Source: Saprospiraceae bacterium
GTDB taxonomy: Bacteria > Bacteroidota > Bacteroidia > Chitinophagales > Saprospiraceae
Reading direction: 5' to 3'
DNA: 38,415 nucleotides
Assembly: GCA_020631105.1 (NCBI GenBank)
Contig: JAHDHW010000033.1
Coordinates: 1-38,415 of the forward strand
A program made the translations under genes and the position numbers. Shown here one piece after another: positions 6,796-12,349 of this stretch (within the stretch, counting starts at the first letter, position 1; every line of letters begins with the position of its first letter). The notes below the pieces were generated by a model that saw only the letters and a program-made list of their open reading frames with translations, made no database searches and was not told where the DNA came from.

Positions 6796-8208
6796 TTAAT
6801 TGTCATTCCCAAAGTTGAACTTACGCGCACTCTTAATTTTTTCTCCGAAATAAAAGGTCAGTCCAATATTACCTCGCCAGAAAAGATCATTATACTTTCC
6901 TTGATCGATTGCATCAATCCCGTCACTTAGGATAAAGTTATAATCAACGCCTGCTCGGAAACCAACTCGATTATTCATCAAATATTCAATTCCAAAACCG
7001 CCATGTACTTTTGGATATATAGATCCTGAGAAATCAAACCGCCCGCCCGGGTTGTCTGCAATCACTCCCAGTCCCGCACTCACATAAGGGGTGAACATAT
7101 CAAAGGGCAATAAGCGATAAGTCCCGTCAAAATCAAGGTATGTCACATCGGATTGATAAAACTGTTTAGTCCCCAGGCTGCTCATCCCAAGGCGAAGGCT
7201 ATATCCTAAATGAGGTTGCCGGGAGATGGTAAGACCAACTTCCATCCCTGTCCGTAAGATAGGATCGGGATAATCTCCTTCATATAATAGTGAAGAAGAA
7301 CTCGCAGAAAGCGCAATTTTACTTCGGCGATTATCTAGTTGTTTTCCAAAAATATCTGTTTGTGGGATGAGTTCTTTTTCTTTTTTGTATTCAATAATTG
7401 ATTTATCAACTATCATTCTTGGTTCTTTCAATTCCCAAAGATTATCGAATACCCCTTCAATAATTAAGCTTTGTACGGCCTTTTCAATTGCCTCTGTAAC
7501 CGCAATTTCAGAGGGCTCATTATATGTAAAACCTGTTTCAGCTTCTAACAGTCTTCCGAATCGAACAAATCGGAACAGACCAACATCTACAGACTGCGAG
7601 AGGATTGTTTTTGAAGTGTAAACGGTCTTTAGAATCTTACCATTACTCGTTGAAACAGCACGAAGATAAACGGTCACCCGATCCTGGCGATATTGGCTTC
7701 CGCCACCTGCACCAAAGTATCGTAAACCAGCTCCTCCGGTTACAATATTTGCATCATAGGAAATAATTCCTCCTTCCAGAATCACCCCCGCATAAAGGAG
7801 TGGAGGTAGGAGCTGATTATTTTGTTCTGTATTATTATATTGAGATCTACTTGATCGGATAATCTTACGTTCATTGAGTAAGTTGCCTACATTTTCTCGT
7901 TCTATCGGAATAAACCAATCACTTTCCTCTAATGCTTTGATCAGTATTGTAGTTGCCCCCTGAGTTACGGCAGTGGACCAGCTTGCTCCATTTTCAGAAG
8001 GCTTGTATTGACCGGTTTGATCTCTGAATTTATAAACAGCAACTACGATTTTATCTTTCGGAGGAGGAAGATTTTTCAGTTCTTCTGTTGAGGTCGTAAT
8101 TTCTCCCAGACGTGCTTTTGAGGATCTTGGTGTCTGCATAACCTTAGCACAAGACATCGCGCAGAGTCCAATACAAATTAAGGTTACGTATGCAAATAGC
8201 TTATTCAT
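6796..8208 (-). CDS. csgG: CsgG curli secretion pore with extra C-terminal beta-barrel
   Basis: This 470-residue lipoprotein has lipidated C20 (CAMSC). Residues 20-265 align well by eye with E. coli CsgG: WFIPIER (99-105), NLLNERKII (109-117), a GARYFG-like segment (GLRYFGAG 161-168) and SKTILS (199-204). CsgG forms the nonameric outer-membrane channel that exports curlin. The usual protein is about 277 residues. Here residues about 296-460 form an added OmpA-like barrel (TPYVSAGLGV, GFRAGVDYNF). The E. coli constriction stretch with Y51, N55 and F56 is replaced by a segment with W77 and one extra residue. It follows csgF after an unusually long 350-bp gap that contains a candidate promoter. 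Confidence 0.93.
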   Translation of the reverse strand: MNKLFAYVTLICIGLCAMSCAKVMQTPRSSKARLGEITTSTEELKNLPPPKDKIVVAVYKFRDQTGQYKPSENGASWSTAVTQGATTILIKALEESDWFIPIERENVGNLLNERKIIRSSRSQYNNTEQNNQLLPPLLYAGVILEGGIISYDANIVTGGAGLRYFGAGGGSQYRQDRVTVYLRAVSTSNGKILKTVYTSKTILSQSVDVGLFRFVRFGRLLEAETGFTYNEPSEIAVTEAIEKAVQSLIIEGVFDNLWELKEPRMIVDKSIIEYKKEKELIPQTDIFGKQLDNRRSKIALSASSSSLLYEGDYPDPILRTGMEVGLTISRQPHLGYSLRLGMSSLGTKQFYQSDVTYLDFDGTYRLLPFDMFTPYVSAGLGVIADNPGGRFDFSGSIYPKVHGGFGIEYLMNNRVGFRAGVDYNFILSDGIDAIDQGKYNDLFWRGNIGLTFYFGEKIKSARKFNFGNDN

Positions 8209-8558: not shown

Positions 8559-8969
8559 TTAGAAAAAAGGAACGATTACCTGTGTTTGTTCCCCTAAGCC
8601 TGTATCCAGGATATTAATGACTAATCCTTCGATTGTCGTAGTAACATCTACCTGAAAATTTCCGAAGGTATAATTACCATCTTCGAGGCCATCTTCTCCA
8701 AATTGAGTCGTAACCAACTGACGTGACAGCTGACTTAGTAACTGGCGATTAAGACTTTCTGCAAAATCATTAACAGAACTACTCTGTGAACGATCAATAG
8801 CATCAGGATCTTCTAATAAATCCTGTACCTGCGCACTACTTAAAAGCCAGTTATAATTGAAGGTGTCTCCTCCGAAGGCTGGATTTTTTGGTTTGTAAAC
8901 AAAGTCCTGTGAAAAACATAGGTTCATTGTCCCAAATAAACAGATACTAAGTAAAAGTAATTTTTTCAT
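8559..8969 (-). CDS. csgF: CsgF curli assembly/pore-associated factor
   Basis: This 136-residue protein has a signal peptide ending near CFS-Q20. The mature N-terminus (DFVYKPKNPAFGG, residues 22-34) and the following LLSSAQVQ match the conserved start of E. coli CsgF (F-x-NP-x-FGG, then LL-x-SAQ). In E. coli that segment inserts into the CsgG channel. CsgF is secreted through CsgG and couples it to the nucleator. Length and domain match the family. It starts 28 bp after the csgE stop, so translation is probably from the same mRNA. Confidence 0.92.
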   Translation of the reverse strand: MKKLLLLSICLFGTMNLCFSQDFVYKPKNPAFGGDTFNYNWLLSSAQVQDLLEDPDAIDRSQSSSVNDFAESLNRQLLSQLSRQLVTTQFGEDGLEDGNYTFGNFQVDVTTTIEGLVINILDTGLGEQTQVIVPFF

Positions 8970-8997: not shown

Positions 8998-9807
8998 CTA
9001 AAAAATTCCACTCCCCTTTTGATCATCAACCTCCATATCATTTTTAAGCTTTTCCGAATCACTTAAATGTTTCTGAATAACCGTTACCGTTTGCTCTGCC
9101 AGTAATTCTAAAATATCCTGACGAGGTTGTAAAAACCTTGAGAAGAGTATATTGCCATTTACTTCTACAGCAATCCTGGCTGAACGGCCACGTGAAGGTA
9201 ACTCTCTGATCGTAATACTAAAGTCTCTGGCTTCAGCAGGAGCTACCCATTTATTGTAAAATATATCATAGAAATCTCTGCCTGTTTTAGAGCGCGTTTC
9301 GTCAAGTATTAATCCGTCTATTTCTAGAGCATCAACTGCATTTCTGGGCTTTTGCTTTTTTTCAGTTTCCTGTTTCGTTTCCTTTTGAGGTGTATTGGGA
9401 CTTGGCAAAGGTTGTAGAGCACGAAACTTTTGCATAAATACCTCATCACTTTTCATTTGCTTAGTAGTGACAATACGTTCATCATCGAATACTTTAAAAT
9501 TTATTTCAAAGGCAGCCGTGGCCCCAAGGTTAATCGTAACATTCGTTAAAGATTTTTCTTCATCAGGCTCCAGTGTAAAGCTTCCTGACTGCGTGGTCAT
9601 CACGTTCCCAGTTGGACCAATTTTCTTAAGTTGTAGCGCATAGCTTAATGCCTGTATTTTTTCTGCCTGGCTTCGTACTAATCCAGTTATTATTGCACTT
9701 CCATCTGCAGCCCGCTGAATATCCAAACTGGATAATACCAACGAAGACTGACCATAGACAGGGCCAGTCAATAAAAGCGAACAGAATAGTAGAGCTATAA
9801 ATCTCAC
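8998..9807 (-). CDS. csgE: CsgE curli chaperone fused to N-terminal CsgH-like domain
   Basis: This 269-residue protein has a signal peptide ending near VYG-Q20. The C-terminal domain (about 161-248) is CsgE: GRDFYDIFYNKW (176-187) and FSITIRELPSRGRSARI, like the GHDFYRAFSDKW and LTINERPSARWGSWI stretches of E. coli CsgE. CsgE caps the CsgG channel and delivers curlin. Typical CsgE is about 130 residues; this one has an extra N-terminal beta-sandwich-like region (about 21-118) and a charged linker (about 120-160). The extra region resembles CsgH, the curlin-aggregation inhibitor of Alphaproteobacteria (a conserved SG-x-FxL-xP-x-E type strand at 74-83). The CsgH identification is by eye and tentative; the CsgE assignment is firm. 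Confidence 0.9.
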   Translation of the reverse strand: MRFIALLFCSLLLTGPVYGQSSLVLSSLDIQRAADGSAIITGLVRSQAEKIQALSYALQLKKIGPTGNVMTTQSGSFTLEPDEEKSLTNVTINLGATAAFEINFKVFDDERIVTTKQMKSDEVFMQKFRALQPLPSPNTPQKETKQETEKKQKPRNAVDALEIDGLILDETRSKTGRDFYDIFYNKWVAPAEARDFSITIRELPSRGRSARIAVEVNGNILFSRFLQPRQDILELLAEQTVTVIQKHLSDSEKLKNDMEVDDQKGSGIF

Positions 9808-9938: not shown

Positions 9939-10502
9939 CTAATTATTTGGTAAAGGTGTGTCAGACTGTCGGATAATGACTTGTAGGCCATCTCCAATTT
10001 GGTATACAGAAAAAGATTGATTGGATTCTCCTTCAAGGATGTGTTCAATGGAATTATTATTTCCTTCTTGTATGAACTGTGCATCGACATTATCCGTATT
10101 AATCAATTGTTGGATAATCGAGTTACCATCTCCATTCTGAATAATCGCAATATCGCTATTGGTACCGATTAAGTCAAGTTGATAGTTATTATCGTTCCCT
10201 TTTTGTCGAACAATAATTCTATTATTTCCTCCTGACTGAAGAATCTGGAGTAAATTATTATCTCCAGCCTGAAGGATTTTTGCAAGGTTTGCAGCATCAA
10301 TTTGCTGTTCCTGAATTACTTCAGCATCATTTCTGTTACCGATTTGACGGATATTAACAGCATTTTGATTTTGGTATATTTCTTCTTCCAGAAGTTCAGC
10401 AGGAGAAAGGATTACATTACTTCCTGACAAATCTTGTTGTGCAGACAAGCTAGTCACTCCCGACAAAAACAACATGAATAATAAGAAGAACCTTGAAATC
10501 AT
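9939..10502 (-). CDS. Second curlin-repeat subunit (CsgA/CsgB family)
   Basis: I choose the ATG at 10502 (MISRFFLLFMLF, good signal peptide ending SLSAQ) rather than an in-frame ATG at 10550 that would put 16 odd residues in front. That gives 187 residues. The mature part has about six 22-residue curlin repeats with the pattern (I/V)-x-Q-x-G-x-x-N, such as IRQIGNRND, IVRQKGNDNN and FIQEGNNNS, after a non-repeat region (about 22-42; PAELLEEEIYQNQN). The repeats are less regular than in the larger subunit upstream. By position and size it may be the nucleator or minor subunit (CsgB role); this is not provable from sequence. Confidence 0.85.
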   Translation of the reverse strand: MISRFFLLFMLFLSGVTSLSAQQDLSGSNVILSPAELLEEEIYQNQNAVNIRQIGNRNDAEVIQEQQIDAANLAKILQAGDNNLLQILQSGGNNRIIVRQKGNDNNYQLDLIGTNSDIAIIQNGDGNSIIQQLINTDNVDAQFIQEGNNNSIEHILEGESNQSFSVYQIGDGLQVIIRQSDTPLPNN

Positions 10503-10531
10503 AATGATAGAAAAAGTATTAATATTAAAGC

Positions 10532-10566
10532 AACTTACCCGGCAGGGCAATCCTACCAGGTAAGTT
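10532..10566 (-). other. Stem-loop between the two curlin genes
   Basis: AACTTACC (10532-10539) pairs perfectly with GGTAAGTT (10559-10566). An inner GGCAGG/CCTACC stem (41-46 with 52-57, one mismatch) closes on a 5-base loop. The minus-strand transcript then reads GCTTTAATATTAATACTTTTT, a weak U-tract. The 10-mer AAAAAGTATT flanks it on both sides (10511-10520 and 10571-10580). It could act as an attenuator or mRNA-protecting hairpin. Confidence 0.65.
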
Positions 10567-10585: not shown

Positions 10586-11431
10586 CTAGTTATCGCGTTG
10601 AGCAACGTTAGCAGAGTTTCTGTTACCAACTTGTTGGATTACAGAAACGTTCTCATCACTTAGCTGAGAGTTAACTGCTTCGTTCTTGTTACCTTCCTGA
10701 ATGATTGAACTTGCGTTCATATCACCATTCTGAGAAAGTACCAATGTGTTGTCATTTCCACTTTGAGATAACTTAGGGTCACCTTCTCCACCAGCGAAGT
10801 TATTCGCTCCGTTTTGTGCAACCACAACAGTGTTATTATCACCTTCTGCTAATAATCCAATATTATTAGAAACTCCATTTTGCTCCATTACAGCAAGAGA
10901 GTTGCTTCCAACCTGAGTTACAAAAGCAGTAGTGTTCTCCCCAATCTGAGATTGAGTAACGATATTATTATCTCCACTTTGTGCCAATTGAACAGTGTTA
11001 CCACCAACTCCTGACTGTTGCTGGATAGCAGTGTTACCACTTCCTTCAGAGAAAATGCTTGCATCACTATCTGCTGCATCAAGTTCCTGACGAGCAGAGT
11101 TGTTGTTTCCATCTTGAGAAATGGCCGCTACATTATTAGCTTCGGTGATCAGCGAGACGGCCTGATTTGAATTTCCTATTTGAGTTACATTCACAGTGTT
11201 CTCACCTCCTGCCATTTCGATTTCTGTTGTGTTTCCAGCTCCAGCTTGATCAACCATGGTCATATTAAGGTCTGAATCTTGGATAACGCTTGCAACGTTA
11301 GTCGAACCAACTTGCAATACATCGGTAGCATTATCATTACCGGTTTGTTTTACGTTACTTTGGTTAGTTTGTGCGAAAGAACAATTAATCGCAAAAAAAC
11401 CAGCAGCAACAAAGAGTGTAATCTTCTTCAT
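10586..11431 (-). CDS. csgA: Major curlin subunit, about 11 amyloid repeats
   Basis: This 281-residue protein has a signal peptide MKKITLFVAAGFFAINCSFA followed by QTNQ. The mature chain is made almost wholly of about eleven 21-24-residue curlin repeats of the form N-x-(A/T)-x-(V/I)-x-Q-x-G-x-x-N, for example LQVGSTN, VTQIGNSN, ISQDGNNN, LAQSGDNN and IQEGNKN, ending VAQRDN. E. coli CsgA has five repeats and 151 residues, so this fibre subunit is about twice as long. One unit (FAGGEGDPKLSQSGNDN) is short and Gly-rich and may form a break or turn. It should be exported by CsgG and polymerise into extracellular amyloid for biofilm matrix. It is the first structural gene after the regulator. Confidence 0.9.
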   Translation of the reverse strand: MKKITLFVAAGFFAINCSFAQTNQSNVKQTGNDNATDVLQVGSTNVASVIQDSDLNMTMVDQAGAGNTTEIEMAGGENTVNVTQIGNSNQAVSLITEANNVAAISQDGNNNSARQELDAADSDASIFSEGSGNTAIQQQSGVGGNTVQLAQSGDNNIVTQSQIGENTTAFVTQVGSNSLAVMEQNGVSNNIGLLAEGDNNTVVVAQNGANNFAGGEGDPKLSQSGNDNTLVLSQNGDMNASSIIQEGNKNEAVNSQLSDENVSVIQQVGNRNSANVAQRDN

Positions 11432-11596: not shown

Positions 11597-11609
11597 ACTT
11601 ACGATAAGT
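11597..11609. promoter_or_regulatory. Palindrome at the predicted csgA transcription start
   Basis: ACTTA-CGA-TAAGT is a perfect 5-bp inverted repeat directly downstream of the candidate -7 box at 11617-11624. It could be an operator or the 5' end hairpin of the leader. Confidence 0.35.
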
Positions 11610-11616
11610 AGATGGA

Positions 11617-11624
11617 CAAATATA
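11617..11624 (-). promoter_or_regulatory. Candidate -7 box of the csgA promoter
   Basis: On the minus strand this reads TATATTTG, a match to TAnnTTTG. No TTTG -33 element lies at 17-23 bases upstream, which fits an activator-dependent promoter. Start would be near 11610, giving a leader of about 180 bases before the csgA ATG. Confidence 0.45.
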
Positions 11625-11646
11625 TACTTAATCAAAGAGTTATCTC

Positions 11647-11663
11647 ATACGGCGAACCCGTAT
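11647..11663. promoter_or_regulatory. Palindrome 1 of a tandem operator-like pair
   Basis: ATACGG-CGAAC-CCGTAT is a perfect 6-bp inverted repeat. Its centre is about 45 bp upstream of the start predicted from the TATATTTG box, the usual position for a class II activator. It lies between the response-regulator gene and csgA. Confidence 0.55.
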
Positions 11664-11670
11664 TTTCGTC

Positions 11671-11685
11671 TACGGGAATCCCGTA
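11671..11685. promoter_or_regulatory. Palindrome 2 of a tandem operator-like pair
   Basis: TACGGG-AAT-CCCGTA is a perfect 6-bp inverted repeat sharing the TACGG/CCGTA arms of palindrome 1. The centres are 23 bp apart, about two helical turns. It is 8 bp past the stop codon of the response regulator, so a termination role is an alternative, but no T-run follows on the minus strand. Confidence 0.55.
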
Positions 11686-11692
11686 TTTCTGC

Positions 11693-12349
11693 TTATGCGA
11701 TTTTTTCTTTTTGTAAATAATTAAAGTAATACTTTGCCAGACCAATAATGTTTCTTACATCTAGTTTTTGGATAAGGTTTCGTTTATGGGTTTCAACAGT
11801 CCTGGGACTGATAAATAATCTTTCGGCAATATCTTTATTCGTAAGTTCTTCTTCAACGACGTATTGAAGAATTTGCTGCTCCCTACTCGTTAGCAGCTTT
11901 ATAGGATTCATTACTTTTTGCTTAGCTTCTTTTCCGAGTTGCATTAGTGCTGTCGCTATTTCATTCGAAAAATAAGTCTTTCCTTTTTTCACTCTTCGGA
12001 TTGCAATAGTCATCTCTTCAAGATCTGTTTCTTTTAAGAGGTATCCCATCGCACCATGCTCCATCATCTTTTGGACATACCCAGGAAGTGCATGTGCAGA
12101 AAAACCTATAATCTTTAATGCTGGAAATATAGGGAGGATATTCTTTGTGAATTCAATTCCACTCCCTTTCCCGAGCTGCATATCCATCAGTATGATGTCG
12201 ACATTGCCTTTTTCACAAAGACTAAACAACTTTTGATAATCATTTACAACTGCCAGCACACGAAATTCCTGCTGTCGGGATAACAAATGTTTTAAACCTT
12301 CCCCCAATAATGCATGATCATCTACGATCACTATATTTAGTTGATCCAC
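11693..12349 (-). CDS. NarL/LuxR-type response regulator next to curli genes
   Basis: This 218-residue protein has a receiver domain (about 5-120) with the acidic pocket D10/D11, phospho-acceptor D56 (ILMDMQ), the switch serine in GFSAH and K106 in YLLKE. The C-terminal LuxR helix-turn-helix (about 150-212) contains LTSREQQIL and the recognition helix ISPRTVETHKRNLIQKL. It should bind DNA as a phosphorylation-controlled dimer. It sits immediately upstream of the curlin genes on the same strand, the place occupied functionally by csgD in enterobacteria, and palindromes suited to a LuxR dimer follow its stop codon. No sensor kinase is in the window. Regulation of curli is inferred from position. 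Confidence 0.92.
   Translation of the reverse strand: MDQLNIVIVDDHALLGEGLKHLLSRQQEFRVLAVVNDYQKLFSLCEKGNVDIILMDMQLGKGSGIEFTKNILPIFPALKIIGFSAHALPGYVQKMMEHGAMGYLLKETDLEEMTIAIRRVKKGKTYFSNEIATALMQLGKEAKQKVMNPIKLLTSREQQILQYVVEEELTNKDIAERLFISPRTVETHKRNLIQKLDVRNIIGLAKYYFNYLQKEKIA

Follow-up and report, generated by a model that had tools for sequence, protein, structure and literature searches.

A candidate activator-dependent csgA promoter with tandem operator-like sites beside a NarL-type regulator in a Saprospiraceae curli locus

In the E. coli/Salmonella curli system, the LuxR/FixJ-type regulator CsgD is encoded in the csg locus and activates the curlin genes, as described in passages of PMC3521004 and PMC8072697. 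A passage of Dueholm et al. 2012 (PMC3521004) states that csgD was missing from all curli-bearing Bacteroidetes genera but Spirosoma; among the open-access matches listed, this statement was the only one found on curli control in Bacteroidota. As to promoters, passages on F. psychrophilum (PMC9723704) give TAnnTTTG as the -7 consensus, place the -7 box at -12 to -5 and report a variant, TAnnTTGY.

The window, by which we mean the whole stretch of 38,415 nucleotides analysed here, comes from a Saprospiraceae bacterium and contains a curli locus; its promoter type and its homologues also point to Bacteroidota. A preliminary description had noticed two palindromes between a LuxR-type regulator gene and csgA, and had proposed that the regulator binds them in a switch analogous to CsgD. 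As an analogy this stood, but membership in the CsgD family did not: with the NCBI CsgD model NF007505, whose cut-off is 250 bits, the window regulator scored 54.8 bits and five relatives scored 51.3 to 62.6 bits.

The csg locus of the window and the region upstream of csgA

On the minus strand the gene order is regulator, a 261-bp gap, csgA, a second curlin-repeat gene, csgE, csgF and csgG, and the regulator, both curlin-repeat genes, CsgE, CsgF and CsgG all exceeded their Pfam cut-offs. The features of the locus are the following.

11693 to 12349, minus strand: NarL-type response regulator, the proposed activator (Pfam Response_reg and GerE above cut-off; groups in the tree)
11670 to 11686, minus strand: candidate distal operator ATACGGGATTCCCGTAG (palindrome core 11671-11685; centre at about -66)
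11647 to 11663, minus strand: candidate proximal operator ATACGGGTTCGCCGTAT (centre at about -43; motif recovered without the window and aligned in relatives)
11641 to 11650, minus strand: expected position of a -33 element, which is absent (TTG scan)
11617 to 11624, minus strand: -7 box TATATTTG (sequence; same offset as in relatives; matches the TAnnTTTG consensus)
11612, minus strand: predicted transcription start (from a -7 box at -12 to -5, as in passages of PMC9723704)
11432 to 11612, minus strand: predicted csgA leader of about 181 nt (from the predicted start)
10586 to 11431, minus strand: csgA-like curlin gene (Curlin_rpt 78.7 bits)
9939 to 10550, minus strand: second gene with curlin repeats, here named csgB and of uncertain start codon (Curlin_rpt 33.7 bits)
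8998 to 9807, minus strand: csgE (CsgE 69.8 bits)
8559 to 8969, minus strand: csgF (CsgF 128.8 bits)
6796 to 8208, minus strand: csgG (CsgG 219.4 bits)

Two observations concern the secretion genes. The csgE product of this family is long (269 aa in the window), with the CsgE domain in its last ~100 residues, and its N-terminal part resembles the CsgC/CsgH amyloid inhibitors: the window protein reached 26.2 bits with CsgH (cut-off 27), the csgE of locus L152 (1489-2322) exceeded the cut-offs of both CsgH (27.3 against 27) and Tafi-CsgC (27.7 against 25), and CsgH matches at E up to 0.01 were obtained in 4 of 9 CsgE relatives. The long CsgE may represent a fusion between such an inhibitor and CsgE; Bacteroidetes CsgH sub-families are mentioned in PMC4838910, with no fusion in the passages concerned. 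In CsgG (470 aa), residues 320-426 resemble an outer-membrane beta-barrel family below its cut-off (23.2 against 28.7 bits).

Both palindromes of the gap, ATACGG-N5-CCGTAT at 11647-11663 and TACGGG-N3-CCCGTA at 11671-11685, are present as had been described; their arms are common to both, and their centres, at 11655 and 11678, lie 23 bp apart. The minus strand reads ATACGGGATTCCCGTAG-ACGAAA-ATACGGGTTCGCCGTAT, followed by 22 bp and then by TATATTTG. For the pattern TACGG-N3..5-CCGTA the expectation is 0.03 occurrences per window, and two copies occurred in none of 100 shuffles, while a nearby pair of palindromes with a common arm was obtained in none of 2000 dinucleotide shuffles of the 261-bp gap; the pair is not a product of chance. 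The short palindrome alone is no signature, because it occurs at 11 sites of the bacterium's own genome and at 20 in the control. A third palindrome, ACTTA-N3-TAAGT at 11597-11609, had been pointed out at the predicted start. It does exist, but a role for it found no support: its arms have just 5 bp, it was absent, by eye, from all 13 other aligned promoters, and we attribute it to chance.

With the predicted start at 11612, the proximal site would span approximately -35 to -51 and the distal one -59 to -73. Their placement upstream of the start agreed with the earlier proposal, but the distances given there, 45 and 68, were two bases off and become about 43 and 66. The -33 element of Bacteroidota sigma-A promoters is TTG or TTTG, and its absence from the window, also claimed before, was confirmed by the lack of any TTG starting 26-18 nt upstream of the -7 box. 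The window promoter has the TAnnTTTG box of a sigma-A promoter without the -33 element and, if transcription starts at 11612, its proximal site abuts or overlaps the -35/-33 region, as an activator site does in class II promoters.

Conservation and specificity of the promoter module

The sample of the family (398 genomes, sampled and not exhaustive) included 45 genomes with CsgF, counting that of the window, and 45 loci were taken from the 44 others, one of which (G186) gave two contigs; many of these genomes are fragmented and the loci are related by descent. The gene immediately preceding csgA encodes a window-like regulator in 14 of the 45 loci or, with the window counted, in 15 of 45 genomes; these are lower bounds, because several loci end at contig ends before csgA.

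De novo search in the upstream regions of the 14 relatives with an adjacent regulator, the window being excluded, recovered the motif AAAATTACGGaTTTTtAGTA, with log-likelihood ratios of 106.4 at width 22 (57.7-68.7 in 10 shuffles) and 152.4 at width 30 (79.4-86.2 in shuffles). Width-22 sites of at least 17 bits were present in 11 of the 14 regions; the site of L181 was weak, the match in L146 was the distal palindrome, and L150, which has no proximal site, gave no convincing match in this search and is not among the 22 aligned promoter rows. When the promoters were aligned on TACGG, the -7 boxes fell in one column, beyond the reach of the width-22 motif. The offset from TACGG to the -7 box was 38 nt where the half-site spacer was 7 and 39 nt where it was 8, which means that the downstream half-site is kept at a constant distance from the -7 box. 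At that offset the exact box TANNTTTG was found in 11 of the 17 regulator-linked promoters and boxes with one mismatch in four, whereas L146 had two mismatches and L162, a misfit at this position, had three; 7 of 10 genera, g61 included, had at least one exact box. In L146, which belongs to the genome with the closest regulator (G169), the distal palindrome is kept, the proximal site is degenerate and the -7 box, TATCTTGC, fits the TAnnTTGY variant as reported in PMC9723704. Since the site lies anywhere from about 127 to 460 nt before csgA, the fixed spacing is no by-product of the conservation of whole regions. The search for such sites before the curli genes of relatives, which the preliminary description had set as a test capable of refuting it, thus turned out in its favour, with sites recurring before csgA whose distance from the -7 box is fixed.

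A CGTAG-like distal half-site, sought with a loose pattern, preceded the proximal site by 11-13 nt in 12 of the 22 promoters and by 18-19 nt in 7, and was not found in the other 3; this variable spacing and occasional absence are as expected of an auxiliary site. In the g63 loci (L153, L154, L155, L257, L258 and L179) the distal half-site is 19 nt instead of 12-13 nt before the proximal one, a shift of 6 nt or about half a helical turn. We also observed, with the width-30 motif, an ATAAC-like stretch in several promoters, the window's included, about 21-25 nt after the T of TACGG (approximately -29 to -25).

The palindromes begin 7 bp past the stop codon of the regulator gene and both are terminator-like on the plus strand (2 found, 1.1 expected), as would be the case if the mRNA of the regulator ended in a terminator or in RNA hairpins formed by them. 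However, the minus strand, which carries both genes, had no terminator-like site, and the whole gap folded no better than its shuffles (z -0.78). The pairing is moreover not kept in relatives although the half-sites are: six of six pairs of the proximal site were found in 2 of 19 sequences, that is, in 1 of 18 relatives, where one pair is G-T, so the perfect symmetry seems nearly peculiar to the window. The persistence of half-sites after the loss of symmetry points to protein binding rather than to RNA structure, and an RNA element would leave the fixed distance to the -7 box unexplained. We consider this explanation very improbable. Binding to short inverted repeats is well established for NarL/LuxR dimers.

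A TTG starting 26-18 nt upstream of the -7 box was found in none of the 17 regulator-linked promoters (the box itself being uncertain in L146 and L162). This bears on whether the regulator might act in the opposite sense, as a repressor that would hold csgA off by covering about -35 to -51 and -59 to -73. Neither the conservation of the sites nor their co-occurrence with the regulator says anything on the sign of control, but a repressed promoter would be expected to have its own -33 contact, and it is activators that typically have tandem upstream sites held at a fixed distance from the -7 box. Repression is therefore unlikely in our judgement.

The specificity of the arrangement was evaluated with a composite model trained without the window, and also without L146 and L150. 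The window promoter scored 42.4 bits and the next independent site in the window 9.1. In a scan of 1,687,636 positions (both strands, overlapping loci counted repeatedly and training sites included) every match of at least 25 bits was upstream of csgA, and the best one elsewhere, in the curli-locus stretch L149 but away from csgA, reached 16.5 bits. The model also recovered promoters on which it had not been trained, in G365 (of a genus outside the training), G332, G343 and G156. Within the bacterium's own 6-Mb genome the composite was unique at up to one mismatch; two mismatches were found at 41 other positions, against 35 in the reversed control. The exact composite pattern had 55 matches in the 398 genomes, 10 of them upstream of csgA (G000, G049, G156, G186, G218, G263, G292, G332, G343 and G365); the remaining 45 are comparable to the reversed control (57), so that the pattern is meaningless outside curli loci. 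No module was found in nine curli loci taken from elsewhere in the class, outside this family (best 6.2 bits), and the model found nothing in the csg region of E. coli (best 3.0 bits).

The NarL-type regulator and its association with the module

The window regulator has a Response_reg domain (78.9 bits) and a GerE domain (64.6 bits), both above cut-off, and its best sequence matches of solved structure were VraR (163.9 bits) and NarL (137.8 bits). By eye, the acidic pair, D56 and the lysine of the phosphorylation pocket are present in the window regulator; the pocket is incomplete in L152, in L150 and in the short reading of L162 (a 135-aa ORF). Among the aligned regulators the helix-turn-helix is conserved best, and the receivers diverge. 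No sensor kinase gene was recognised by eye beside the regulator in the ORF list. Comparison with named genomes gave 34% identity at best (among the best 80 of 133 loci) and was not used as evidence.

In the tree, the 17 csg-linked regulators were separated by one branch (100/98) from 23 top matches located outside curli loci. When the best match of each of 29 further curli genomes was added, a branch (100/99) held 26 rows, 23 of them belonging to genomes in which the module or a linked regulator is present, plus G091, G028 and G132. Adding the best matches of 23 relatives without a CsgF match gave a branch (100/99) of 32 rows, namely the same 26 and six from g61; the other 17 fell outside this group, 13 of them from eight other genera (three from the window's genus) and four from g61. 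Three genomes (G156, G316 and G332) carry the regulator on the same contig as csg, on the far side of csgG.

The association between module and regulator group was assessed in 44 loci, each scored by a model that left out its own genus, with a threshold of 20 bits; G316 and G361 were unscored as their csg stretches end before csgA, G186 was represented by its csgA contig alone, and L331 and L332 were outside this scoring and read separately. The module was present in 13 of the 24 loci from genomes with the group and in none of the 20 from genomes without it, the highest of the latter reaching 15.4 bits. Seven loci have no recognised csgA (L147, L148, L169, L183, L184, L185 and L188), and with the csgA-recognised loci alone the figures were 13 of 22 against 0 of 15. 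By genus, the module was found in 8 of 12 against 0 of 10 (p 0.0017), or in 8 of 11 against 0 of 7 with csgA-recognised loci alone (p 0.004), statistics that rest on related genomes. As had been proposed, the adjacent regulator is the best candidate for the binding protein, since the regulators linked to csgA all belong to a single group, and across genomes the presence of this group goes with that of the module.

The exceptions bear on whether the sites might instead bind another protein encoded elsewhere, the adjoining regulator being then a coincidence of operon organisation. There are group members without the module: in G066 the regulator adjoins a csgA that lacks the proximal site, and in G091 a member of the group is on the csg contig; G028 and G132 also have a member, with csgA not recognised. 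In g61, besides, the regulator gene is unlinked and persists where curlin is missing. On the other hand, all 10 genomes with the exact composite before csgA have the group regulator, including G365, where it is on another contig, and no curli locus without the group reached the threshold. A different binding protein is thus quite unlikely, and we retain the adjoining regulator.

In g61, the regulator and csg are on different contigs. Five csgA promoters of this genus (L166, L182, L261, L331 and L332) seem to keep the module, with decayed right half-sites, a claim based in part on visual alignment and on the offset to the -7 box. With g61 left out of the training, their scores were 24.1, 7.1 and 6.5, and 16.0 and 0.5 (another site in L332 scored 6.5), and the offset was 39-40 nt to an exact -7 box in all five. 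A TTG, overlapping the operator, is located 24 nt upstream of the -7 box in four of them, and at 19 nt in the fifth. Its presence here and its absence from the linked promoters fit a contact replaced by the activator in the latter and a less dependent promoter in g61. Six g61 genomes have the regulator without a CsgF match; G369 has curlin repeats, its genome being probably incomplete, and the other five have none. In these five, which lack curlin but retain the regulator, the protein must act on something else, and in g61 it is thus not dedicated to curli. These observations on g61 concern L272, L275, L276 and L300-L305. By eye, the g61 regulator has an aroE-like neighbour in each of the three loci inspected and a sua5-like one in two of them.

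Proposed mechanism and comparison with known systems

The sequences themselves show the two sites with their conservation and spacing, the lack of a -33 element, the uniqueness of the composite in the genome and the co-occurrence of module and group. We consider it quite probable that csgA has an activator-dependent sigma-A promoter, without a -33 element and with tandem sites, both bound by the adjacent NarL-type regulator in a class II-like manner. Two regulator dimers would occupy the sites, one centred near -43 and the other near -66, with roughly two turns of the helix between them, and the distal dimer would assist its proximal partner from an auxiliary site. The proximal dimer would take the place of sigma's -33 contact and recruit RNA polymerase to a start predicted at 11612. 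Once activated by this binding, the promoter would drive csgA and probably also csgB, csgE, csgF and csgG behind it, presumably as a single operon. In short, the neighbouring regulator is most likely an activator specific to this pathway, with a proximal dimer near -43 that stands in for the -33 element.

A wider reading, which we hold only slightly more probable than its contrary, takes the regulator as a CsgD-like switch that is not CsgD and extends this to the divergent members of the group. One pathway-specific NarL-type regulator and a fixed promoter without a -33 element would have been inherited together, with essentially one target in the window's genome. Where the receiver pocket has been lost, in G049, G066 and perhaps G220, control would depend on the level of the regulator and not on a kinase. 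In g61 the regulator would have left the locus, and the TTG at -33 inside most operators would loosen the dependence on the activator.

This defines for curli control in Bacteroidota a gene, two candidate operators and a promoter register. It also provides, for a phylum whose promoters are unusual, a well-defined candidate promoter of the activator-dependent kind. The exact -7 box of the window is that of the -33/-7 type sigma-A promoters of Bacteroidota, which, unlike the promoter proposed here, have a -33 element where the window has two conserved candidate operators. The regulator resembles VraR and NarL, of the NarL/FixJ type, in having a receiver and a GerE-type helix-turn-helix over its whole length, but differs in that no neighbouring kinase was recognised by eye and in the incomplete pockets of L152, L150 and the short L162. 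As with CsgD of E. coli and Salmonella, a LuxR/FixJ-type regulator is encoded in the csg locus, here directly before csgA. In contrast to the divergent csgDEFG/csgBAC arrangement, however, regulator and csgA are in tandem, and the csgA promoter, unlike that of csgBAC, is of the Bacteroidota -7 type. The sequences suggest that this group of Bacteroidota probably switches curli on with its own counterpart of E. coli CsgD and, if the regulator is independent of CsgD, a dedicated LuxR-type switch for a surface amyloid would be a repeated solution.
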